A DNA stretch of 64,000 nucleotides from Kalaharituber pfeilii (lineage: Eukaryota > Ascomycota > Pezizomycetes > Pezizales > Pezizaceae). Positions 209-55,361 of this stretch are shown here, in pieces. Positions within the stretch are counted from its first letter, which is position 1. Every line of letters starts with the position of its first letter. Position numbers and translations under genes: made by a program. Where the stretch lies: the NCBI GenBank assembly GCA_015179045.1, contig WHUZ01000007.1:372001-436000 (forward strand), written 5' to 3'. The notes under the pieces were generated by a model. The model did no database searches, had not been told where the DNA came from, and saw only the letters and a program-made list of their open reading frames with translations.

Positions 209-301
209 TTTTTTTTTTTTTTTTTTTTTTTTTTAATACCTTTTTTTTTTTTTTTTTTAAATATCACTACTCGCTTGCCGCCCTAGGGGCTATGGCGAGG
301 T
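209..301 (-). mobile_element. Short retroposon, tail family 2, with 12-bp TSD
   Basis: The minus strand carries the family-2 core CTCGCCATAGCCCCTAGGG followed by GCGGCAAGCGAG and a long interrupted poly(A) (poly-T in the window, 209-258). The 12-bp direct repeat AAGTGGTAGTAC lies at 197-208 and again at 302-313. The core can fold as CTCGC/GCGAG closing a GCCC/GGGC hairpin. There is no room for an ORF. It is a retroposed copy made in trans, probably by a LINE (inference). Confidence 0.85.
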
Positions 302-3235: not shown

Positions 3236-3295
3236 GGCCCTGCCATGGCGAACAGCTACAAGCGGGGTCACGTGAAATAAATAAAAAAAAAAAAA
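3236..3295 (+). mobile_element. Short retroposon, tail family 1, with 11-bp TSD
   Basis: The family-1 core (GCCCTGCCATGGCGAACAGC, then TACAAGCGGGGTCACGTGA) is followed by an A-rich tail. The direct repeat GCCTATATTAT flanks it at 3225-3235 and 3296-3306. The element begins exactly at the core, with no extra LINE sequence. Confidence 0.9.
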
Positions 3296-8680: not shown

Positions 8681-9988
8681 CAGTCAAACCTGTCATATTG
8701 GATAACGTCTGAACCGGAGGGTTGTATCCAATAAGACAGGTTATCTGCTTAGACAGGTTTGAGTGAAAAGGTTAATTTTGTACTATATACATGCCGGCAG
8801 AGGTATAGCAGGTAAGTACATGAATAATAAACTATACAGTTGCAAAATAAGAGGTAATAGATGCCTGTTTCAAAAGGCACCTGAAGCTTTGGATGCTGTT
8901 GAGGATAACAGAATGGTACCATTCAGCCTCAGTAGGATCTTTGTTCGCACTACATTGCCATAGTGTCTGCCATGCTATGCACTGGCAGCAGTCTAGGTAC
9001 GAGGTCTGTACTTGCCAGTAACATCATATACAAGTCACTAGTAGAACAATCCCACAAAAGTGGTCTACCGGTAACAGCTGGTTAAAGTTCATGATACTTG
9101 CTAGTATTCGCGCGATCCAAATTGGCAGATCCAATTACTACAGTCTAACCCTATACCGGACGAGTGAAAATCTGGCACTTTTCATCCGGTATGTCAAGGT
9201 TCCGGTATAGAATAAAATGCTTGGCGGCTGTAAAAGGGGGATTTGTATAAAAATTACTAGAGCAGGAAATAAACAAGTGTAGCAAACATTAACTCACTCC
9301 AAGTCTATTCAAAATCCATTGCTCTCACCATCTAGAGAAGCATCAAGCCTTAAAATCTCTTGGGGAGCATCAAATACACAAGCATCGACTATAGCCAAAA
9401 CATACAACTCTGACTGTTTCTCTAAAAGCCTATCAATTTACATAAAAAAAAGCTTCAAACTCTACAAGTATGGTTCCAGTTTTTCCAGCAGCAGCAGCGA
9501 CAGCAATGGTAGCAGCAATGGCGACAGCGATGACAGCAGCAGGGGTGGTAGCAGTGGTGGCAGTATCATAGCGGTGACAGAGTGGTAAACAACCAGACTA
9601 AGTAGTAAAGTGGGGTAGTCTAAGATGTATTAGTATTAGTGTGTCCGGTAAAATATTATTTGTATGGAGAGGGGGGTACTTGTCCGGAGGTTTCTGTCCG
9701 GTCCGATATTGTTGGGGCGTTGAAGGGCAATTTGTATGGGAAAAGGTTGTCCGAATCAGAGGCCATCCGGTATAGCAAGGTTTCCGGTATAGCAAGGTCC
9801 GGCGTAACAAGGTTAGGCTATATGTAAATTCGGGAAGTGGGCCAGCAAATATGCTATCCATCCAATAATGAAAATATCCTATAATCTACACCGGCCCAAG
9901 CCCGGGCCGGCGATGCTAATCCAATATGGCAGGTTATCCAATATGACAGCATCCAATATGACAGCATCCAATATGACAGGTTTGACTG
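8681..9988. mobile_element. TIR element A, copy 1, carrying nested element B
   Basis: The terminal inverted repeat CAGTCAAACCTGTCATATTGG opens at 8681 and its complement closes at 9988, with TA on both sides (8679-8680, 9989-9990). TA duplication and TIR fit the Tc1/mariner-pogo superfamily, but no transposase is left. Element B sits at 9141-9820. The second copy of A lacks B, giving an empty-site comparison. Extra partial TIR repeats (GACAGCATCCAATAT) are tandemly repeated near 9940-9975. Confidence 0.85.
9141..9820. mobile_element. TIR element B, copy 1, nested in A
   Basis: It starts CAGTCTAACCCTATACCGG at 9141 after TA and ends GTAACAAGGTTAGGCTA before TATG, a diverged complement. Inside is a frame reading MLSPSREASSLKIS..., then an AGC-type microsatellite encoding poly-Ser. 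Copy 2 at 57529-58259 shares the same head (MLSPSRKVSSLKSS) but its triplet tract reads as poly-Ala. I do not recognise the peptide. Non-autonomous (inference). Confidence 0.8.
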
Positions 9989-25708: not shown

Positions 25709-25779
25709 ACCTCGCCATAGCCCTCAGGGCGGCAAGCGAGTAATGATATAAAAAAAAAAAAAAAGAAAAAAAAAAAAAA
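25709..25779 (+). mobile_element. Short retroposon, tail family 2, with 12-bp TSD
   Basis: The core CTCGCCATAGCCCTCAGGGC with GGCAAGCGAGTAATGATAT is followed by an A-tail interrupted by one G. The repeat TACACAACTAAC lies at 25697-25708 and 25780-25791. Confidence 0.92.
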
Positions 25780-27287: not shown

Positions 27288-28126
27288 GGGGGGGGGTCAA
27301 GTAATCCCGCATACAGGCTACCAGCCTATGGCAGGGACCCATATACCCGGGCCAGATTGAAGCAACAACCTATCTATCCTACGTACACAGTTGGGTATCC
27401 AACGTACCCTCCGACCCTCAGCTAGCCCAGGTCGAGGCTGGCAAACCATACCTCGACCGGGTTGCCGTTTATGATACTCCCTCCTGCCTCCACCCTTTCT
27501 CCTCCAATTCTTCCCAGCACTGCCAGGTGACTGGCGCCCCATCTTTATCCTTCTTCTGTGGTAGCTCCAGCTCAGTGCACCTGAACACCACATGCTCAGC
27601 ACTCTACGCCTCTCCACAAGTGCATAGCGCCTCCTCACTGCTGATCTTCCTCCTCCACATAGTTCCAACCTTCCCAGTCCGCAGCCAGGTGTAATTGTGA
27701 GTGCCCTCCTGCACCACTTCAAAAACCTACCCTTCCCAAACCCAGCTTGCTGTCTGTCCTCCTTTCTCCTTCTAACTCCTGGTGCAGCCCGCCCTCTGTG
27801 GGCTGCCCATCATACCTCATGCACTTGGCCCCCTCTTTGGCCTTCTCATCTGCCTTCTCGTTGCCCTCTATCCCTACGTCGGCCTTGACCCATGCAACCT
27901 TCACCGCGCCAGCATCCCTCAGCCTACGCCGCCTTTCAGCCATGAGCTCTACCACCCTTGCCGGTCCGCAGTCCTCACCTTGCCGGTTTCTCCTGCTCTC
28001 TTGACTGCACTGATGGCTGCTTGAGAGTCTGCAAGCAGCAACCCCTTTCCCAGTCTCCAGGTGTCAGCCTGCGCCGCCCATACCCACCATGAGTGTCTTC
28101 CCACGTGGGTCAGGCACCTTGTCTGG
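27259..28126 (-). pseudogene. LINE ORF2 remnant: endonuclease end fused to RNase H and CCHC
   Basis: The element runs on the minus strand with its poly(A) at 27259-27287 and a family-3 tail at about 27297-27340. Upstream are a Cys-rich CTCGEA...SAEHVVFRC motif broken by a stop (about 27580-27640), an RNase H part WVKADVGIEGNEKADEKAKE at about 27830-27890 in which the usual His is Asp, and LLLADSQAAISAVKRAG at about 28010-28040. Further upstream the frame reads PDPRGKTLMVGMGGAG, an endonuclease motif. The whole reverse transcriptase between them is missing. A hAT-like element abuts the 5' side. Several stops and shifts make it dead. Confidence 0.85.
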
Positions 28127-29152
28127 CAGTGTTCCCAACGGGCCGGCCTGAATGTTTCAGGCCGTTCCAGGCCGCCCAGGCCGGTCCAGGCCATTCAGGC
28201 CATTCAGGCCATTCAGGCCGGTCCAGGCCATTGAGGCCATTCAGGCCATTCAGGCCGGTCCAGGCCATTCAGGCCGGTCCAGGCCATTCAGGCCGGTCCA
28301 GGCCATTGAGGCCATTCAGGCTGCAGTGTGAGTTAAGTTATACAGTAGCTATATACAGAACGTACTCTAATTCTACTCTAATGTTTAGGATTTTGCTTGC
28401 TGATTTTACACCGCCAGTACCGCTTTCCATTAGCCATGCACAGCTTCACCATACTGTCAAATCCAACTTTGTCGCACCAGATTTTTGTAACCCAAATTCC
28501 AGAAGACTCGGTATCCGCATCAGATTGGACTGCAGGGAATCGTCGATGCAAGATCAAAACTTGAGCGGCACTATGGAGAGTGAAGAATACTAAAGGAATC
28601 ATCATCGCCAGTACCGGTGGTTGGAATGTCTGTCTTCCTGCAATACTGATAAGAAATTAGTATATAGTCAAGCGATACAAAAAAAAATTACTTACCTGAA
28701 TACCTGCGAAAAGCGCTGCACAATAAAAAAAAGTCTAGATAGTTATCTGAAAATATTGAAAGGTTCATATTAAATCCGTGTCCAAGTAACCTGAAGGTGG
28801 CCCCTGAAATAGCCTCATAACCAGCCCTCCTGCCCCTAAAATTGCTTAAACGGCCTGAATGGCCTGGACCGGCCTGGACCAGCCTGGGCGGCCTGGGCGG
28901 CCTGGACCGGCCTGGACCAGCCTGGGCGGCCTGGACGGCCTGGACGGCCTGGACCGGCCTGGGCGGCCTGGGCGGTCTGGGCAGTCTGGACGGTCTGAAA
29001 CCGCCCAGGCCGGCCTGGACCGGCCTGGACCGGCCTGGGCCATCTGGAACCTTGGCCTGGCCGGCCTGGGCTGTTTCAGGCCTGCCAAGCCAGGCCGCCA
29101 AGCCGGCCGGCCCAGGCGGCCTGGTCGGCGGCCTGGCCGGTTGGGAACACTG
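28127..29152 (-). mobile_element. hAT-like non-autonomous element, copy 1
   Basis: Termini are CAGTGTTCCCAAC on the left and its complement GTTGGGAACACTG on the right. Inside each end lies a long tandem array of 9-10 bp GGCC units (AGGCCATTC, AGGCCGGTCC), left arm about 28140-28325 and right arm about 28850-29140, in opposite orientation so the arms can pair. The middle carries a spliced small gene (see 28378-28768). The immediate flanks TTGTCTGG and ATATTGGA do not match each other but match those of copy 3 when the segment between is inverted, giving an 8-bp duplication as for hAT elements. Confidence 0.85.
28378..28768 (-). CDS. Spliced small hAT-derived protein with BED-finger-like end
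   Basis: This is the same two-exon gene as in copy 3 (38624-39014). It starts at the Met at 28768 (MNLSIFSDNYLDFF), has an intron with donor GTAAGT and a TACTAAT branch-like site, and ends at 28378. The C-terminal part contains ESSGIWVTKIWCDKVGF and NGKRYWRCKISKQNPKH, which resembles the BED-type zinc finger at the N-terminus of hAT transposases. The last finger Cys is Ser here. It probably survives from the 5' end of an autonomous parent; whether it is expressed is unknown. Confidence 0.6.
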
Positions 29153-29728
29153 ATATTGGATAACGTCGGGACCGGAGGGTTCTAACCAATAAGAAAGGTT
29201 ACAGTATCTGCTTAGACAGGTTTGAGTGAAAAGGTCAATTTTTGTGCTATATACATGCCGTCAGAGCTATAGCAGGTAAGTACATGAATAATAAATTATA
29301 CAGTTGCAAAATAAGAGGTAATAGATGCCTGTTTTGAAAGGTACTTTGAAGCTTTGGATGCTGTTGAGGATAACAGAATGGCACCATTCAGCCTCAGTAG
29401 GATCTTTGTTCGCACTACATTGCCATAGTGTCCACCATGCTATGCACTGACAGCAGTCTAGGTACGAGATCTGTACTTGGCAGTAACATCACTATATACA
29501 AGTCACAAGTAGAGCAGTCCCACATAAGTGGTCTAACAGCTGGTTAAAGTTCTTGCTAGTATTCGCACTATCCGATATGACAGGTCCACTTACTACGGAA
29601 ACAGGCCAGCAAATACGCTATCCATCCAATAATGAAAATATCCAATAATCTACACCGGCCCAAGCTCGGGCCGGCGAAGTTCATCCAGTTATCCAATATG
29701 ACAGGAGCCAATATGACAGGTTTGACTG
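29153..29728. mobile_element. TIR element A, copy 2 (left TIR displaced)
   Basis: It matches element A from ATATTGGATAACGTC onward, lacks nested B, and closes with GACAGGTTTGACTG before TA. Its missing outer TIR bases (CAGTCTAGCCTGTC as a complement) lie at 39359-39381, beyond hAT copy 3. Inverting 29153-38470 brings the two parts together around that hAT copy. Confidence 0.82.
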
Positions 29729-31376
29729 TAGTAATACTGGAGCTGCGAGACATTTAGGAAAGGAGGGACGGCCTCTACATGAGCCCCTGCATCTAGAGAG
29801 TTCAATTCGGAGCTAGCTGGGTCAGAATAGAAGCTGCTGGAGTTGCAGTTTGGAGTTGACGAGGTTGAAGTAACTAATTCAGAATGAAAATAGTGCGGTC
29901 GAGACTGATGAAAAATAGAATTCAGGCTGTATATATGAAGTTACGTACAGTGCTATGGTTCAAACCCTGAGTTTCTGCTAATCACATTTTATACTATAGC
30001 ATTGGTGGCATCACTGCCAGCAAGTGGAGTGCCGCAGGATGAATATGAGCTCGTGAGTGCTGGAAGGGGTCATTTTGCAAGATACTAAGGTGCATAAAAC
30101 TGTAGATGCTGTAGACGCAGCTTTTTTGTCTTTTTGACTGCACTTTTAGAATTAGCGCACGTAATTTCGTCCATTCTCAATGCATCGCATATTTGTAATT
30201 ACTATTCTGTAAAATTTGAGTGCATTCGGTAGTTGGGGTAGGTATTATTCTGGTCACTTCGTGTAACTGGTAGTAGACCCATGCTGGATATCTCGGCATT
30301 TCTTTCGGGTGGAATAGTAGCATACAAACTTGAAAAATCATGTTCTCGGGTTGCTTAGCCATCTTCGCCGAGCTCTATCTCTACGAGTGGATAAATAAAT
30401 AAATAAATAAATAAAAAATAAAGGACAGGATGAAGCACCACTGACAAGGTTGAACGGTTAAGCCTTCATGCAATTGAATCTGATGGGTTGAGGGAGCTAG
30501 CGACCTGTGTACGAGGTGCAGAGGAGGATGTATGTCACGTACATACAAGCCTTTTATTATCCCTGCAAATAATCAAGTGAGATAGTAACATTCAAGGATT
30601 GAAATATCTATACCACAAATGTTATAGGATGTCACCTGAAGGATACATGTACGAGTACCGCGTCATCACTCTCCAGTTACTGTAGTTAATTATTGTCATG
30701 TGGTGCTCGTATTGCAGCTTAACGGAGCATGAGAGCGAACTCGTCAAAGACGCTGAAGATATGGTTCTGGGAGCTCGGGAGTCAAGCGCCAACTCTTGTC
30801 GCACTGCAATCTGGGGTTCGGAATGCTTAGCTAGAATTGATTATCCGTCTTGGAGGCGCCATTTATATTTAATCTAGAGACGAATTGACTAGGCCCATAT
30901 ACATAATCCTTTTGCGATGAAGCAACAAGAAGCCTCTTACCCTCATGATTTTATACGATTTGGCGTTAAGATATCCCGAGACACCGAGTCAAAATGCGTT
31001 CCAGGTATCTAGCCGTTCTGCCCGTTGGCTTGCAGAATGGTCCCGGCATTTAGCGTCCGAACCTGACCCCGTGCTTGAGGTGAATGTTGAACTAGCGGTT
31101 ACTACAATGGGTTAGTGGTTGAGTGTTGGTTGGTTAGTCAACATTGCGCATGCAACGCATACGGAATGCTCAATGACAAACAAGTATAAAAGTTTGCGCG
31201 CGTTTCTTGGTCACGGTTTGATCTATGATGCCAACATCCCGTTTGCAATTGTGGTACAATGCCACGCGCGCATCAATCTGAACTTCAATAGTCGCATATT
31301 GAAATTCAATACAATAATGTGCCTCCTGTAACAATCTACTCTCTTGGCACTCCTTGTCATACATTTCTTGCTCTAT
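29729..31376. other. 1.6 kb without a supported gene
   Basis: Short frames only. An AAAT microsatellite lies at about 30390-30420. Confidence 0.45.
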
Positions 31377-31436
31377 TTTTTTTTTTTTTTTTTTTTTTCA
31401 CGTGACCCCGCTTGCAGCTGTTCGCCATGGCAGGCC
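31377..31436 (-). mobile_element. Short retroposon, tail family 1, with 12-bp TSD
   Basis: The complement of the family-1 core is preceded by about 22 T. The repeat TTCTTGCTCTAT flanks it at 31365-31376 and 31437-31448. Confidence 0.9.
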
Positions 31437-31592
31437 TTCTTGCTCTATTACTTATGGATATATTGCAACTATAGAAATTATCTAACATTATACTAATTTT
31501 ACATTGCTAAATCAGAATTTTGCCATCATAATAAGGAAAAATCAAAATCCCAATATTGACAACCAAATTCATCATTATTATCTAAATTGAGC

Positions 31593-31651
31593 GCCCTGCC
31601 ATGGCGAACAGCTACAAGCAGGGTCACGTGAAAAAAAAAAAAAAAAAAAAA
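31593..31651 (+). mobile_element. Short retroposon, tail family 1
   Basis: It starts exactly at GCCCTGCCATGGCGAACAGC and ends in 21 A directly after CACGTG. No flanking duplication recognised. Confidence 0.8.
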
Positions 31652-31929
31652 TCTCTCTTTGTATATAATACACCAGCAATAACGAAAATGCGTCTTGGCG
31701 CGCGGGCGCAGCGTCATGACATACGTCCCATGTGTTAGTGCGTCCTGACGTCCTTCGCACCAGGCCTGGCACCCTGACACCACGCTAACTAGGCCCGGCG
31801 TCCGTACTTCACATAATTCCTTGCATGTCCAGATGCCTAACGAGTAACAGATAACGTTATTAACGAGGCAACTGACGTGCCGCATCGGCTGTTTAAATCA
31901 GATGCCAATTTTAGTTACATGTGCGGCCT

Positions 31930-32215
31930 CAATACCTACATAATCCAATGTACCCTACATCTCATTTGCGCAGTCAATATGCTCAATATACCCAATATCT
32001 AGTGCGTGCGGTCAATTTGCTTACTGTAATACTCCCAATACGCCCACATGGTGTATATCTTATGCGCGCGCTCAATGTGCTCACGCTCAATGTGCTCGTG
32101 CTCAATATGCTCACTATCTCATGCACGCAGTCAATATGCTTGATACACCCAATACGCCCACATGGTGTATATCTCATGCGCGCGCTCAGTATGCTAACGG
32201 CGGTCAATTATCTCA
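31930..32215. repeat. Imperfect tandem repeat, AATACGCCCACATGG units
   Basis: The block AATACGCCCACATGGTGTAT followed by ATCT(T/C)ATGCGCGCGCTCA occurs at about 32036-32080 and 32151-32195. Shorter TCAATATGCTCA(A/C) steps lie between and before them. Related steps occur at about 3650-3770. Confidence 0.65.
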
Positions 32216-33241
32216 ATCTGGCAACATTGCAGTATGTATGAGGTACCCTCTTAGGAGATTGCTGAATTGAGACGAAGTTTACGTTGTTGCAAATCTCGCC
32301 ATATGTAGCCCATAGGGCGCGAGCAACATTGTTGCAAAAAGGGGCTTCAGTTGTTAAACTCATCAGGTCGCTTGGGCCACTGCAGCCATCGGATGTTACG
32401 TTACACCAGTCTACCAGAAAACTACAATGGGATGATGCAACCAGACCGAGCATGATGAACTATTGATCAGTACGCTTCCAGCTTGCTGGTTGACACTGCC
32501 GGAATTACCCCTCATGGTCTGAGGCATGAGCTGAGACCTCAACATTGTACAGTCCAGTATTCCACTACAGATTCATCACGTGGCAGTCCTTTCTGGTGTC
32601 GGCCTTCGCGTCAATGGCAAGCAAAATGTCATCATCCGCAACCTGACGATCATTAAGGTGCTGGCGGGTGCGGGAGATGCTATCGGCATCCAAGCTGCAA
32701 AGAACGTCTGGGTCGACCACTGCGATCTCTCTTCTACTGTAATATGGACCATAACAAGGACTACTACGACGGCTTAATTGATATCACCCACGCCTGCGAC
32801 TACGTCACCATTTCGTACACATACCTCCACGATCACTGGAAGGGAACTCTTGCCGACAACAACGGTGCAGAGGATTCTGGCCATTTGACTATTACCTACA
32901 AGCACAACTACTTTAAGAACCTGTACTCTCGAACTCCGTCCTTCAGGTTTGGAACTGGCCACATCTACAGCAATTACGTGCGTTGTCCTGCACTAGAATG
33001 ACAAATGGAGCTAATAGGGTTCCCTATATTAGTTTCAAAGCATTCGCGACGGTATCAACACCAGACAGGGTGCTCAATTGCTCGTTCAAAACAACGTCTT
33101 CGAGGTTGTCGAGTAAGTCCACCTTCCTAAGAAACCTAGCTGCAGATTACAACCGGAATGGCTTACAAAGGCGCTCTTTGATTGCAAATAGCAATCCAAT
33201 CTTCTCTACCGATGCTGTCTATGCCTACGCCACTGGCAACG

Positions 33242-33701
33242 TGTTACGGTTTCCACGATGATATAGTAAATATGAGGGTGTAACTTAGGACAACGCTTGA
33301 TGCTTGACCTTCGAGAGGGTAGCTATTGCTGACCCTTCTTATAGCCAATCCTGCGTGCCCACTGTATATTGTGATTGCTATCTATGCTACCTTAACAGAC
33401 CTCCAGCAGCTTCAGCAGTTCACGTAACTCCGTCAACAGTTATCCCCATAGCTCCGGTGCAGCTATAGCTCCGGCCCTGACTGTTTCTCCGAGGTGTGGC
33501 TGTTCTTCCAGAATCTCCGGTCCGTGCCCGAGGCACTGTCTTACCGCTCTGACCATGCCGGCATTCCTTGTGATACACATCCGTGCCCAACCCATGTTTC
33601 ATCGCCAGACTGTAGCTATCAGTTGATCAGGCCGAATCGTCACTAGCAGCTTTACAGGTCAATGTGGGTGGATATCCCCTTCGTGGGTAGAGACCCTGAC
33701 A
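33242..33701 (-). mobile_element. Solo LTR inserted in the pectate lyase
   Basis: On the minus strand it begins TGTCAGGG and ends CCGTAACA. The 5-bp target repeat CAACG is at 33237-33241 and, beyond the later retroposon, at 33817-33821. It shares clear sequence with the solo LTR at 39781-40155 (for example GGGGATATCCACCCACATTG). Intervening retrotransposon sequence was lost by LTR recombination (inference). Confidence 0.88.
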
Positions 33702-33711
33702 CAACAGCTTT

Positions 33712-33812
33712 ACCTTTACTCCTATCTTATTCCTCATTTTCATATATCTCCTATGTAACTATATCGCCATAGCCCCTAGGGCGGCACGCGATTAATGATA
33801 AAAAAAAAAAAA
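33712..33812 (+). mobile_element. Family-2 retroposon with 5' extension, 14-bp TSD
   Basis: About 55 bp of upstream sequence (through TCTCCTATGTAACTATATC) precedes the core CGCCATAGCCCCTAGGGCGG and a 12-A tail. The repeat GACACAAC(A/G)GCTTT flanks it at 33698-33711 and 33813-33826 and overlaps the LTR/gene junction, so this element is younger than the LTR. The closing stem here is ATCGC/GCGAT where other copies have CTCGC/GCGAG, a compensating pair. Confidence 0.9.
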
Positions 33813-35026
33813 GACACAACGGCTTTGGCGGTGATGGAAACACTGCTTTGGTGGGCACAATCCGAACCGTCCCATACAACACCTCACGTAGTTGAGCCGC
33901 ATCACGGGCCAACTACACACACAAGAAAATTCACGCCGTTCTAGAAGAACAAGTCGACGCGTTCTAGAGAGCGAGGACAAAGGAAAGACTGCAGGACGGG
34001 TATTGACCAGTTGGAAAAGATGAAATTTGACCACATGGAAATTGGACTATATGGGAAGGTTAAGGATTGGGGCAAGAGATTCACAGTGATTTCGGGAGGG
34101 AAGCAGGTTACCTTGGAGGGGGATTCAGAGTAGAGCCAACTGCCAGGTTTCAATACTGCGAAGGTGGATGAGGTGCTCAATCAGGCAGGAAAAAATACAG
34201 AGAATTTCATAAAGAAAAAGGATGTTCTGGGACTCTACGAGGAGTGGAGCCGAGCTGAGGAGGAGACATTTGAGCTTGGTTTAGCATCAGCAGAAGAATG
34301 GATGAAGTGGGCAAGTTTCGTTAACCAGGGACTAGCAATTCAGGAGGGAGAGTTTCAAGCAGACCAAGGAGTAAGAACGGCAATTGGGGAGGATGAAATT
34401 GAGAATGTCATTGATGTAGGAGGCAGTACCCAAACCATCAAAACCCCATGTTGAAGAAAGGAGAAGCAATTGTCAAGGGTAGCAAAATATGGATCACCAT
34501 CACCAGCACCATCCTGGTTCGGAAAACAAAAGCAGATCAGTATCTAAGATGCGTTAGCGGTGACGGATAAAGCAAGTATGAGAGAAGAGCTCGAAGAGTC
34601 AGCACTTGAGGAAATGGAAGGTGACGTTTTCACGAATATAGTAAGCGAGGTAACGGAAGTCAATTCGCAGGCAAATGGCTCGCCACCAGCACTACCACAA
34701 GCAAACGACCCACCGCCTGCGCTGCCGCAGCGAAATGCACCAGCACCATTGCAGATGAATACAACTTCACAGGTACAAAAACGGAAGCGAGAAGCCGACA
34801 AGTTCAATGAGAGCGTACAGGAACAATTGGCGAGAGAAATGCTAGAACAAAAGGCTAGAAAGGCGGTAGAAGAGGAGAAAGATAAGGAACAAATGGCAGG
34901 TGCGAGTGCAGTTGAGATTCTAAGATTGCTGAGGGGGCTAAGAGTATTAAAGAGCTCATGGGAAACGAGTAAGGGCCCTAGATTAGGAAGAACTGCATCA
35001 GTGTAACGGATTTGGCAAACGCAGAG

Positions 35027-35226
35027 AGTTACTGTCCGCCAGGTCAAAAAGACACTTGACTGGCGATACTCGCTAGTCCTCTGCGTAGCTCATATAGCAC
35101 TCATTTATGCGACTGCGATGCCGTTCCGGCTGTCGCATATCGCCTGCGTCGCATATGCGCATTTCGTATGCGCGTGTGCATGGTTCCACCGACCGCCCGC
35201 CCTACGGTTGCGGTGAACCCGTAACA
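35027..35226. mobile_element. Probable solo LTR, about 200 bp
   Basis: Termini AGTTAC...GTAACA are inverted, and the sequence interrupts the ORF1 remnant between an LANAE and a YWRGWG coding segment. The TGTTACGGGTT end resembles the LTR at 41651. I could not find a clean 5-bp duplication. Confidence 0.45.
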
Positions 35227-35421
35227 GTCAGCTATTGGAGAGGATGGGGCAAAGCTAGGTGAAATTATTGAGCATTGCAAAGGAGCTGATGGTAGAGCCT
35301 AGAGAGAAATTGAAGATCTCTTGCGGTTGGAACCAGATAATGACGCCATGGTACGTGCTCTCTGTGAGCAGAAGGACTGGTGGGAAAAGAAGAGGGAGAT
35401 CCTACGTGGGTGAAAGGCGAG

Positions 35422-35642
35422 TCTTTTTTTTTTTATTTCACGTAACCCCGCTTGCAGCTGCTCGTCATGGCAGGGCCCCTGCTAAACCCTTGATGCTCGG
35501 AGTCAAGCATATCTAACTACCCTTCCACCGCCTACTCTACATACGAAAGTCCCGCCCCTCCCTGCCGCACCTCCCCGCGACAATAAAAATAGCTACTTCA
35601 CGCTTCCGCCGCCATCTCCACATAACGAAAAGTCACCCCCTC
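35422..35642 (-). mobile_element. 5'-truncated LINE with family-1 tail, 10-bp TSD
   Basis: This 221-bp insertion in the ORF1 remnant has the repeat GAAAGGCGAG at 35412-35421 and 35643-35652. On the minus strand it ends with GGGTTTAGCAGGGGCCCTGCC, the rest of the family-1 core and an A-tail. It ties the 38-bp core to the end of a longer transcript. Confidence 0.88.
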
Positions 35643-37247
35643 GAAAGGCGAGCTTGACAAGTCAGCGACTCAAGAAAATGGAGGAAAGCCTCGCCCCAGT
35701 AGTAGTTAGGCTTGGGACAGCTACAATTGAGGAATAGAATGCTGCTAGAAGAGAGGAGGAGATAAAGAGGAAGAATCTGGAGATTGAGGCAAAAAGAGAG
35801 ACTGAAAGAGCCTTAGCTCATGCAAAGGCACATGAGGCGAAGCAGAGAGAGGCAAGAGAGAGAAGTGAGTGTGAGGCTCAGGAAGCAGCTGAACAGGAGG
35901 AGCGAAGGATTGACCTCGAAAAGGCATCAAAAAGGGCAGTGCTAGAAGTAGAATTCGAAGCCTTGTAGAAAAGGTCTACTAGGGTGCAAATAAAGATGAA
36001 TAAGGAAGCTAGTGAGGAAGAGATGGAACAAGCATATGAGGAGGAACAGAAGGCAAAAAAGAAAGCTACTGAAGTAACTGAAGCTCAGGAGATAGCTGAG
36101 CATGTCGGACTGGGCAAGATAAGGGCAGATGGTGAGTTCTGAGAGGTTGTAGGCACAAAGAAGACTAGGAAATGAGTAGTAATTTCCCTTCACAAACAGG
36201 CAGCGATATGTGAGGAGGGGAGGTGGGAGGAGGAGGAAAAGAAGCACCTAGGGGAGGTTTCCAATGCACTGCTTGCACTAGAAAGTGGAAACAAATAGAA
36301 GGCCATTCGAGTAGTTGATCTGGTAGGAAATGCAGCTGTGTCAAGGTTCGAGTAGAAATGGCGAGTTGTTGATACGGCATGGCATATGGAGGAAGAAGGA
36401 AGTAGTAGACATACTGAGGAAGCAGCTAGAGGCAGTCTTTGGAGATGACATGCTCTATGTGTGGGGTGAACAGCGAGGTACAGTACTACTAATTGCAAAA
36501 GGTTGGGGACAGAGATTACATATCACTTTAATTGCGGGAAACATGTACGCATTTGGAGCAAGATGGCCAGAGAGGGTAGGCCCAAATGCATGGAATACGA
36601 TGAAGGCAAAAGCAGTCAAGTTCGAAGCTGAAAATGCACAGGTAGTAGAACTTCTTTGTCAAGGAAGGAGTTAGTATTGGAGGAGGCATAAGAGGGTCGA
36701 ATTGTATAAGCCCGTAGCAGGAAGGCTTCAGGAATTACTAGTGAGCACTCGAGCCACGACTTCAACAGTAGCATCAGCTACTACGGTATCAGCTACTGCA
36801 TCAGATAACAACATTACACCAGCACCCAACCTGCCACCTAACGCACCCTCTGCACCTGCAGCTATGAGAAATGGCGAGCCAGGAACTAGGTCTACTTTCA
36901 GTAGTCAGAAGAGGAAGCAGCCGGTTCCAGAGAAGAGTTAATTTCGCTGCCAAAGGATTGGGCACATTCAGAGAACTGCCCCTTACCAAAAGGCATTAAG
37001 AGGCGTACAGAAGGGGCCCCGTCGAGGCCTGAGGCGGCTAAGAGACCAATGACAATAGGAGTCGTAGTGCAGGCAGGGATGGGGCCAGAAGGCCAATAGT
37101 AATGTTAAAACAGAAGGTGAAGGTAGCATTTCAGAATATTGAAGGATCTCTCAGAAATAGTGATATCATTTTGGAATGGGCAAATAGAGAGAAGGTGGAA
37201 TTGATCTTTATAGGGAATGCATGAGTAGAAGGGAGGAGAGTGGGTAA

Positions 37248-38205
37248 CGGTGTTCCCAACCGGCCAGCCCAAGGTTCCAGATGGCCTGGGCCGGTCCAGG
37301 CCGGCCAGGCTGGTCCAGGCCGTTCAAGCAATTCAGGGGTAGGAGGGCTGGTTACAAGGCTATTCAGGGGCCACCTTCAGATTACTTGGACACGGATTCA
37401 ATACAAACCTTTCTACATCCTCGGATAGCTATCTAGACTTTTTTTTTTATTGAGCAGCGCTTTTTGCAGGTATTCAGGTAAGTAATTTGCCCTGCCATGG
37501 CGAACAGCTGCAAGCGGGGTCACGTGAGAAAAAAAAAAAAAAAAAAAAAAAGGTAAGTAATTTTTTTTTAGTATCGCTTGACTGTATACTAATTTCTTTT
37601 ATTACTACTGCATGGATGCAGACATTCCAAACACCGGTACTGGAGATGATGATTCCCTCAGTAATCTTTCTTCACTCTCCATAGTCCAGTTCAAGTTTTG
37701 ATCTTGTACTGACAATTCCCTGTAGTCAATCTGATGCTGAAATCGAGTCTTCTGGAATTTGGGTTACAAAACTCAGTTGTGACGAAGTTGGATCAAATAC
37801 TGCCGATCTCAACTAGGTAGTCGCTAGTAAATATAAGGCCAGCCAATAACCTGGTGGAGCAATGCGTGATAATGGAAAGTGACACTCGCGGTGCAAAATC
37901 TGCAAGCAAAATCCTAAACGTTAGACAATGAGGTATACGTAGAAGTAGGAGTACGTTCTGTATATAGCTATAGCTACTGTATAATTTAAATCACATTGCA
38001 ACCTGAATGGCCTGAACTGGCTTGGACTGGCCTGAACTGGCTTGGACTGGCCTGAACTGGCTTGGACTGGCCTGAACTGGCTTGCACTGGCCTGAACTGG
38101 CTTGGACTGGCCTGAATGTCCTGGACTGGCCTGAATGATTCAGGCCGGCCCAGGCCTAGATTTCTATAGCCCAGGCCGGCCAGGCCATACCCGTTGGGAA
38201 CACTG
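37248..38205 (+). mobile_element. hAT-like non-autonomous element, copy 2 (older)
   Basis: Termini are CGGTGTTCCCAAC and GTTGGGAACACTG. The internal small gene is diverged and interrupted by stops, and the right arm has 20-bp tandem GGCCTGAACTGGCTTGGACT units at about 38000-38110. It retains RCKICKQNPKR, the Cys-containing version of the finger end. No convincing 8-bp repeat remains. A short retroposon is nested at 37489-37550. Confidence 0.8.
37489..37550 (+). mobile_element. Short retroposon at the hAT splice donor, 13-bp TSD
   Basis: The family-1 core begins at GCCCTGCC and carries a long A-tail. The repeat AGGTAAGTAATTT lies at 37476-37488 and 37551-37563 and contains the 5' splice site. 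Copies 1 and 3 of the same hAT element have one uninterrupted AGGTAAGTAATTT, a direct empty site. Confidence 0.95.
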
Positions 38206-38470
38206 GCACTAGGTAATAACGGGGCATCTGGCCTATGAGGTTATCAGCCAGGTTGAGAGCGGCAAGAGGAGAGTGGCAAGAGGATAGTGGCTCATGCTAG
38301 AAGAGGGGCCCGAGATTAAAAGTGAATGTTCACTCAGATACAAATCTAGAGATCTTGGAGGGTTAGATGGAAAAGTGGGTAAGGCTGAGAGGCCCAGATG
38401 ATCCACGGCCTAGTGCAGTACTGCTAGGAGACTTTAACGCACACCACCCAGCTTGGTACAAACCAGACAA

Positions 38471-39358
38471 CAGTGTTCCCAACCGGCCAGGCCGCCCAGG
38501 CCGCCCAGGCTGGTCCAGGCCGGTCCAGGCCATTCAGGCCGTTTAAGCAATTTTAGGGGCAGGAGGGCTGGTTATGAGGCTATTTCAGGGGCCACCTTCA
38601 GGTTACTTGGACACGGATTTAATATGAACCTTTCAATATTTTCAGATAACTATCTAGACTTTTTTTTATTGTGCAGCGCTTTTCGCAGGTATTCAGGTAA
38701 GTAATTTTTTTTTGTATCGCTTGACTATATACTAATTTCTTATCAGTATTGCAGGAAGACAGACATTCCAACCACCGGTACTGGCGATGATGATTCCTTT
38801 AGTATTCTTCACTCTCCATAGTGCCGCTCAAGTTTTGATCTTGCATCGACGATTCCCTGCAGTCCAATCTGATGCGGATACCGAGTCTTCTGGAATTTGG
38901 GTTACAAAAATCTGGTGCGACAAAGTTGGATTTGACAGTATGGTGAAGCTGTGCATGGCTAATGGAAAGCGGTACTGGCGGTGTAAAATCAGCAAGCAAA
39001 ATCCTAAACATTAGAGTAGAATTAGAGTACGTTCTGTATATAGCTACTGTATAACTTAACTCACACTGCAGCCTGAATGGCCTCAATGGCCTGGACCGGC
39101 CTGAATGGCCTGGACCGGCCTGAATGGCCTGAATGGCCTCAATGGCCTGGACCGGCCTGAATGGCCTGAATGGCCTGAATGGCCTGGACCGGCCTGGGCG
39201 GCCTGGAACGGCCTGGAACATTCAGGCCGCCTGGGCCGGCGCGGGCGGACCTCACGGCCGGCCTGAATGTTTCAGGCCGGCCCAGGCCTAGATTTCTACG
39301 GCCCAGGCCGGCCAGGCCATACCCTTGGCCTGGCCTGGCCGGCCCGTTGGGAACACTG
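38471..39358 (+). mobile_element. hAT-like non-autonomous element, copy 3
   Basis: Termini CAGTGTTCCCAAC and GTTGGGAACACTG enclose GGCC arrays (left about 38485-38545, right about 39070-39345) and the spliced small gene. It is nearly identical to copy 1 in the middle but opposite in orientation. Left flank CCAGACAA and right flank TCCAATAT differ. Confidence 0.87.
38624..39014 (+). CDS. Spliced 110-residue hAT-derived protein, BED-finger-like
   Basis: Exons 38624-38696 and 38755-39014 join in frame across a 58-bp intron with donor GTAAGT, TACTAAT branch-like motif and TTGCAG acceptor. The protein starts MNLSIFSDNYLDFFLLC and ends NGKRYWRCKISKQNPKH. The C-terminal 45 residues resemble a hAT BED-type zinc finger with one zinc ligand replaced by Ser. 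Copy 1 encodes an identical second exon. The catalytic DDE/dimerisation regions are absent, so it cannot be a transposase. It could be a DNA-binding leftover or not expressed. Confidence 0.6.
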
Positions 39359-39381
39359 TCCAATATGACAGGCTAGACTGC
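39359..39381. mobile_element. Detached TIR of element A copy 2
   Basis: TCCAATATGACAGGCTAGACTG is the terminal repeat of element A with one or two changes. It stands alone next to hAT copy 3, with the rest of the element at 29153-29728. Confidence 0.8.
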
Positions 39382-39440
39382 AGATATCCTGTACCAAGCT
39401 TGTTCTACACCAGTTGTTTAACTGACCTAACTGACCTGGA

Positions 39441-39505
39441 ATCTCGCCATAGCCCTTAGGGCGGCCTGCGAGTAATGATATTAAAAAAAAAAAATAAAAA
39501 AAAAA
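39441..39505 (+). mobile_element. Short retroposon, tail family 2, with 13-bp TSD
   Basis: The core CTCGCCATAGCCCTTAGGGC with GGCCTGCGAGTAATGATAT and an A-tail is flanked by TAACTGACCTGGA at 39428-39440 and 39506-39518. Confidence 0.93.
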
Positions 39506-39658
39506 TAACTGACCTGGAGTTCCAGCTTTGTTTATCAAAACGCTCTCACCGACTACTGCTTTTCTCATGATCAGGCATATTGGTCTAGCCTTGTTACTCA
39601 TTCTGTGCCCTGCTTTCATCTTTCAGATAGAGTAGCTCTTTTTGTACCTAGATATACA

Positions 39659-39780
39659 GTTGAACTTGTTATATTGGATAAGGCTGGGACCAGTGGGTTT
39701 TATCCAATGAGATAAATATCCAATAATCCTCACCAGACCAATTGGCTAGGCCCGACAAAGTTGATCCAATCTGAGAGGTT
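39659..39780. mobile_element. Diverged short derivative of element A
   Basis: CAGTTGAACTTGTTATATTGG and GATCCAATCTGAGAGGTT resemble the two ends of element A, with only about 80 bp between. A solo LTR has inserted at its right end. Confidence 0.6.
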
Positions 39781-54742: not shown

Positions 54743-54804
54743 GCCCTGCCATGGCGAACAGCTACAAGCGGGGTCACGTGAAATAAAAAAAAAAAAAAAA
54801 AAAA
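54743..54804 (+). mobile_element. Short retroposon, tail family 1, with 14-bp TSD
   Basis: GCCCTGCCATGGCGAACAGC begins immediately after the repeat AAGCTAGACTTGAG (54729-54742), and the A-tail ends at the second copy (54805-54818). It is a clean minimal example: 42 bp of core and a tail. Confidence 0.95.
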
Positions 54805-55361
54805 AAGCTAGACTTGAGCTTCTTTTTCTCTGGGGCTTCCTTTGATGTTGGCTCGCGCAGGTGTATCTGGTGCCTCCGCCCCATTCCGTTGCCATTACCG
54901 CACACACCTTGTAAGTTTTCTGCAAACCAGTCTCGTACCGCTGCAAACCAAGTATGGAATACAGTGCCAGTGCAGAGTTGAGAGTGATGACAACGGGCTG
55001 GAGAGGTCTCGGCTCCTTGAAATGTCTCACCACCCCGGGCTTTTCAGTTTCCCTGAATCAGCAATTTATTGATATCCAATGAGTATGAGTATTCAGGTGT
55101 TCATTAAAGGAATAAAGCATACAAGTGAGGAAGAGACGACCACAAGTTAAGATGGCCAACTCTCTCTATCCGAATGCAGAAAGTGTACAGCTCGTCATGG
55201 GAGCTCTGGTATTCTATCTACAAACGTCAGGATTTCTTCGAACTATTTATGCTCGTCAGGACCCAGCTAAATATTACATTAGATCTGATAGCTGCATATG
55301 CGTGCAATTCACCGTCGACTCGGCATCCACTTGACTGCTGTAGGAACTAGGTACCGGCCCC

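Follow-up and report, generated by a model that had tools for sequence, protein, structure and literature searches.

The window, a stretch of 64,000 nucleotides from contig WHUZ01000007.1 of the Kalaharituber pfeilii assembly, contains two non-autonomous hAT copies in opposite orientation, each spanning CAGTGTTCCCAAC to GTTGGGAACACTG, which enclose an interval of about 9.3 kb. A MARVEL-domain protein encoded in the window shows 74% identity to a protein of Tirmania nivea and likewise 74% to a partial protein of Terfezia claveryi, the only named close relatives in a set of 19 hits, which makes an origin in the Pezizaceae likely. The 1026 bp of copy 1 and the 888 bp of copy 3 were searched for a transposase, and none was found in either. 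The relevant features, in window positions, are the following, where TSD and TIR denote target-site duplication and terminal inverted repeat.

27700-28118, minus: downstream half of a LINE, consisting of the remaining endonuclease (EN) fragment to ~28047 and then the RNase-H region (domains read by eye)
28119-28126: outer flank of copy 1, TTGTCTGG, the reverse complement of 38463-38470
28127-29152, minus: hAT copy 1, 1026 bp, non-autonomous
28261-28905, minus: 645-bp tract in copy 1, identical to the tract in copy 3
29153-29160: inner flank of copy 1, ATATTGGA, the reverse complement of 39359-39366
29153-29719, minus: element A copy, cut off from its terminus
29153-38470: interval read as inverted, 9318 bp, from the exchanged flanks and the LINE and element-A paralogues
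32657-32998, plus: pectate lyase exon or remnant (PF00544, 2.3e-20), within the inverted interval
37248-38205, plus: hAT copy 2, with a mutated left TIR, no TSD and a U1 insertion at 37489-37552
38200-38470, plus: upstream half of the LINE endonuclease fragment (from ~38320 in the best-matching paralogues)
38463-38470: inner flank of copy 3, CCAGACAA
38471-39358, plus: hAT copy 3, 888 bp, non-autonomous
38487-39131, plus: 645-bp tract in copy 3, identical to the tract in copy 1
39359-39366: outer flank of copy 3, TCCAATAT
39367-39382: terminal 16 bp of element A, 13/16 as in the paralogues (GACAGGTTTGACTGTA), 10 kb from the rest of the element

The 8-bp flanks of copy 1 do not match each other, nor do those of copy 3; compared between the two copies and reverse-complemented, they match perfectly. 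The letters that the first-pass annotation had given for these flanks (TTGTCTGG / ATATTGGA for copy 1 and CCAGACAA / TCCAATAT for copy 3) proved exact on re-reading, and re-inversion of 29153-38470 restores both 8-bp TSDs, as had been proposed. No new TSD is present at either breakpoint; the old TSD pairs are exchanged instead.

The same operation had been said to rejoin a LINE endonuclease frame. For this junction 40 places were scored and 12 loci cut out, 11 of them besides the window's own, with both strands compared. All 11 fetched paralogues read through the predicted junction without a break: immediately after the EN side comes sequence related to that on the outer side of copy 1. The alignments contain 46-58 identical positions over 63-71 aligned, with scores of 54-90. 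Random segments (300) compared with the same junction gave a mean score of 15 and a maximum of 80, the latter above most of the paralogues, possibly because the LINE loci had been left in the pool from which the segments came. The join is upheld by the paralogues, but the LINE that it produces is still not whole. At ~28047 the EN fragment of the window is joined to RNase-H-region sequence (again a domain reading by eye), and the paralogues retrieved with the other-flank query match only from query base 76-110 onward. This second break is an internal deletion of the LINE itself, unrelated to the inversion.

At the opposite breakpoint, the terminal repeat of element A had been expected to be completed by re-inversion, and the paralogues bear this out. 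Of seven fetched besides the window's own copy, six have TCCAATAT, or a close variant of it, continued by a relative of GACAGGTTTGACTGTA, and one (L086) stops short of the end. The six include L083, which lies in the window itself at 8695-9141. The octamer TCCAATAT occurs twice in the window, at 29160-29153 (minus) and at 39359-39366, and only the latter is followed by GACAGGCTAGACTGCA (13/16). The terminus therefore lies beyond copy 3, and the body of element A adjoins copy 1 within the interval.

These observations support the inversion of 29153-38470, with a correction to its limits. Since a crossover would fall within the 645-bp identical tract, the strict limits of the inversion would lie inside the hAT elements rather than at 29153 and 38470. 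The first-pass annotation had counted four independent junctions. All are indeed repaired by one move, but they are more accurately described as two joins with a double check on each: the LINE join and one TSD mark a single place, and the element-A join shares another place with the second TSD.

Besides the pectate lyase exon or remnant and hAT copy 2, the inverted interval contains other repeats. The flanks of copy 2 found no partner among 381 hAT ends, either exactly in either sense or with one mismatch in the exchange sense. The U1 unit inserted in copy 2 is a body of ~40 nt able to form a hairpin, followed by poly(A) and often lying between direct repeats, which resembles a minimal SINE. 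It is present at window positions 3236-3295, 31376-31434, 31593-31651, 37489-37552 and 54744-54806, among others. Across 353,703 bases examined there are 50 matches, which do not amount to 50 separate places, since the loci overlap each other and the window; an A-rich tail follows 48 of them, and 30 have a direct repeat of at least 8. Nothing in Rfam matched U1 in the window at the gathering scores, and the 14 matches of a permissive Rfam scan of 37300-39700 all fell below gathering scores and were taken as chance. A second such unit, U2 (~41 nt plus poly(A)), is found at window 241-301, 25709-25774 and 39443-39505, and also inside one of the hAT copies on C311 (L089). In the same overlapping 353,703 bases it gives 46 matches, of which 41 have an A-rich tail and 11 a direct repeat of at least 8; a genome search with a U2-containing query returned 2751 first-look candidates, 40 of which were scored. 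The papers listed by a literature search included none plainly devoted to units like U1 or U2.

The assignment of copies 1 and 3 to the hAT superfamily, made at first from the window alone, is supported by another copy in the genome that has the same termini and carries a transposase. Their terminal inverted repeats, CAGTGTTCCCAAC...GTTGGGAACACTG, begin with CAG and end with CTG, as is usual for hAT elements, and the 8-bp TSD length is that of 62 exact duplications among 106 paired copies. A search of the genome for the hAT dimerisation domain PF05699 gave 29 matches, at least two of which lie between ends of this family as judged by eye (C235:419256-419492 and C290:388607-388843). The C290 copy (L091) is 4413 bp long, has the same TIRs as copies 1 and 3 and is flanked by the TSD CACCCCCA. 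It carries the C-terminal PF05699 domain (7e-21) together with an RNase-H-fold match below the curated cut-off, and its last 87 bases are 99% identical to the last 87 of copy 3.

The internal comparison of copies 1 and 3 is informative with respect to the mechanism. Outside the 645-bp identical tract the two copies diverge strongly in their GGCC-rich subterminal arrays: in copy 1 the array is long toward element A and shorter toward the LINE, and in copy 3 it is short toward the LINE and long toward element A. The core differs at 0/499 positions, which makes copies 1 and 3 the closest of 136 pairs among the 17 copies with a full core; the next-closest pair differs at 2/507 and the median of the 136 pairs is 2.6%. 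These 17 derive from 20 collected copies (L004, L033 and L090, without a full core, were left out), themselves a part of the ~200 in the genome, with 8 chosen as best matches to copy 1. A 351-bp core query reached 100% only at the two window copies, among 40 places scored. An identical core combined with differing ends is what would be predicted for a crossover anywhere in the 645-bp tract, with or without conversion. Copies on C113 and C18 had at first looked like the two parents of copies 1 and 3, but ranking the left and right subterminal repeat types of the 20 copies by eye gave a linkage that is suggestive at most, the ends being hypervariable and the C311 pair lying outside the repeat-type pattern.

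The flanks of the whole family were then considered. The hAT end pattern CAGTGTTCCCAACNGGCC occurs 418 times in the assembly (199 forward, 219 reverse), and 381 of these ends with 8-bp flanks form the census (380 listed, and a further one taken from the window). Ends that face each other at a distance of up to 4 kb were treated as one paired copy. Of the 106 copies so paired, 62 have an exact TSD (one of them being the very short span C201:542466-542527), 8 have a TSD with a single mismatch or shifted by one base, and 36 have neither. The figure of 36 is an upper bound, as exemplified by C2:678092, which has its TSD at a larger offset; the 36 also include the C79:708013 pair, formed by two left-type ends. 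When right flanks were shuffled among copies, exact TSDs averaged 0.61 with a maximum of 4, compared with the 62 observed. Letter-shuffling of the flanks of the 106 paired copies gave, over 500 sets, no reciprocal exchange and 0.37 one-sided matches per set.

Matches of flanks between different copies fall into four groups. Copies in a duplicated segment on C21 and C322, with a common TSD, account for six match lines that are formally reciprocal; a single long copy on C290, with ends more than 4 kb apart, accounts for one; and the window pair and a pair on C311 account for two each. The C311 pair is thus the one unexplained reciprocal exchange besides the window, and again consists of inverted neighbours. 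Its copies, at 370842-371921 and 387084-387808, are separated by a 15.2-kb interval and flanked by GACAGAGC / ATGGTGAG at one copy and GCTCTGTC / CTCACCAT at the other, in reciprocal inverted exchange. Their longest identical tract is 241 bp, with insertions and a few substitutions elsewhere. A joined-flank query for this pair matched only the two C311 places themselves, and no paralogous empty site was recovered.

Two further patterns were noted among the flanks. The ends with identical flanks on C21 and C322, and likewise on C257 and C302, point to duplicated segments or uncollapsed haplotypes. Furthermore, the flank ACTCGATG precedes a left-type end at nine places (C19, C42, C52, C79, C231, C241, C290, C292 and C326), where the hAT end is probably carried within another repeat.

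Taken with the exchanged TSDs, the LINE and element-A joins and the identical core with differing ends, the proposal of an inversion by recombination between inverted copies is supported, and the present order of the interval is probably the product of ectopic homologous recombination between inverted hAT copies, by which the interval was flipped. In the proposed sequence of events, a non-autonomous hAT element would first have inserted into a LINE copy, generating the TSD CCAGACAA. A sister copy would have inserted ~10 kb away in the opposite orientation, beside the terminus of element A, with the TSD TCCAATAT. Homologous recombination within the 645-bp identical tract (ectopic, that is, non-allelic) would finally have inverted the segment between the copies. 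The event appears to be recent, since no substitution separates the two copies of the 645-bp tract, although gene conversion in the course of the event would leave the same picture.

The main rival, though an unlikely one, is an assembly flip, in which the chromosome is uninverted and the assembler misjoined two inverted repeats of 0.9-1.0 kb. The 645 bases that copies 1 and 3 have in common are longer than short reads; however, the 360 contigs for 78.03 Mb and the absence of any N in 282,480 bases of the loci examined suggest an assembly from long reads, for which a flip at a 1-kb repeat is less likely. The 36 of 106 paired copies without a simple TSD are in a state that misjoins could leave, yet the 62 exact and 8 near TSDs indicate that the assembly crossed many copies rightly. 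Both unexplained exchanges, in the window and on C311, are local inverted pairs, where an assembler would flip as well; random misjoins among ~200 dispersed copies should nevertheless also give exchanges between contigs, and among the 381 ends these came only from the duplicated segment on C21 and C322. We infer that the crossover took place in the organism rather than in the assembler.

An inversion made by alternative transposition, such as the reversed-ends Ac/Ds transposition of maize, is very improbable. Ac elements do produce such events, according to the accessible text of PMC8225341, and transposase-bearing copies with these termini are present in the genome. According to the same source, however, alternative transposition makes a new TSD at the insertion point and its reversed-ends form needs directly oriented copies, whereas the window has two complete copies in inverted orientation, with both old TSD pairs exchanged. 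This alternative was rejected on the inverted orientation and on the lack of a new TSD at either breakpoint, the feature that sets recombination apart from it. A chance resemblance between two old copies with lost TSDs, a condition allowed by the 36 of 106 paired copies without a simple one, has a negligible probability and was rejected on the flank-shuffling control, with which the LINE and element-A joins agree.

Beyond the ectopic recombination proposed for the window, it is conceivable, if rather doubtful, that this hAT family is a recurrent and perhaps reversible maker of inversions. Breaks made by the transposase at one copy would be mended, with crossing-over, on an inverted sister copy close by, and segments of 9-15 kb would thereby flip both ways within the population; in the window, the stretch with the pectate lyase exon or remnant would be reoriented. 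More generally, a probable transposon-mediated inversion in a fungus can here be read cleanly, down to the base, from a single assembly. With ~200 copies of one family, a genome can be screened through exchanged TSDs for inversions, or for assembly flips, without recourse to a second genome; here the screen yields two candidates (the window and C311), the remaining cross-copy matches being the duplicated segment and one long copy.

Inversions associated with hobo elements are known in Drosophila. Among fungi, a limited literature search, with subscription journals mostly outside its reach, found no hAT inversion with exchanged TSDs in the accessible portions of the papers (including PMC4112212, PMC6367777 and PMC6737239). 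A comparable fungal case is ToxhAT of Bipolaris sorokiniana, a hAT-like unit inverted at its termini, for which intrachromosomal recombination was suggested (PMC6737239, accessible text). What is inverted in ToxhAT is the unit, between its own TIRs, and TSDs were not found; in the window, the inversion affects the DNA that separates two elements, and their TSDs are exchanged. The Ac/fAc inversions of maize resemble the window in having hAT copies at both breakpoints, but they are made by transposase and carry new matching 8-bp TSDs, which are not seen here; the accessible part of the same report distinguishes ectopic-recombination inversions, without a new TSD, from reversed-ends transposition, with one (PMC8225341). 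In Atlantic cod, hAT-derived MITEs at inversion breakpoints have been proposed as drivers through ectopic recombination (PMC12368964). The copies are non-autonomous hAT elements, as in the window, but the inversions are large and the MITEs form tandem arrays; the terms 'target site duplication' and 'TSD' are absent from the main text of that paper. A close parallel is the Galileo inversion 2z3 of Drosophila buzzatii, with opposite copies and exchanged TSDs, where the chimeric Galileo copies were put down to ectopic recombination; in the accessible text, opposite orientation, exchanged TSDs and chimeric copies together are regarded as the mark of this process (PMC2775673). The mechanism is hence already known from flies (PMC2775673), and hAT copies are already implicated in inversions elsewhere (PMC12368964). 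Galileo differs in belonging to the P superfamily, in its 7-bp TSDs and in forming a natural chromosomal inversion for which non-inverted chromosomes were sequenced (PMC2775673, accessible text), whereas the case described here concerns a hAT element and 9.3 kb of a fungal genome, and is known from the present order of one assembly alone.
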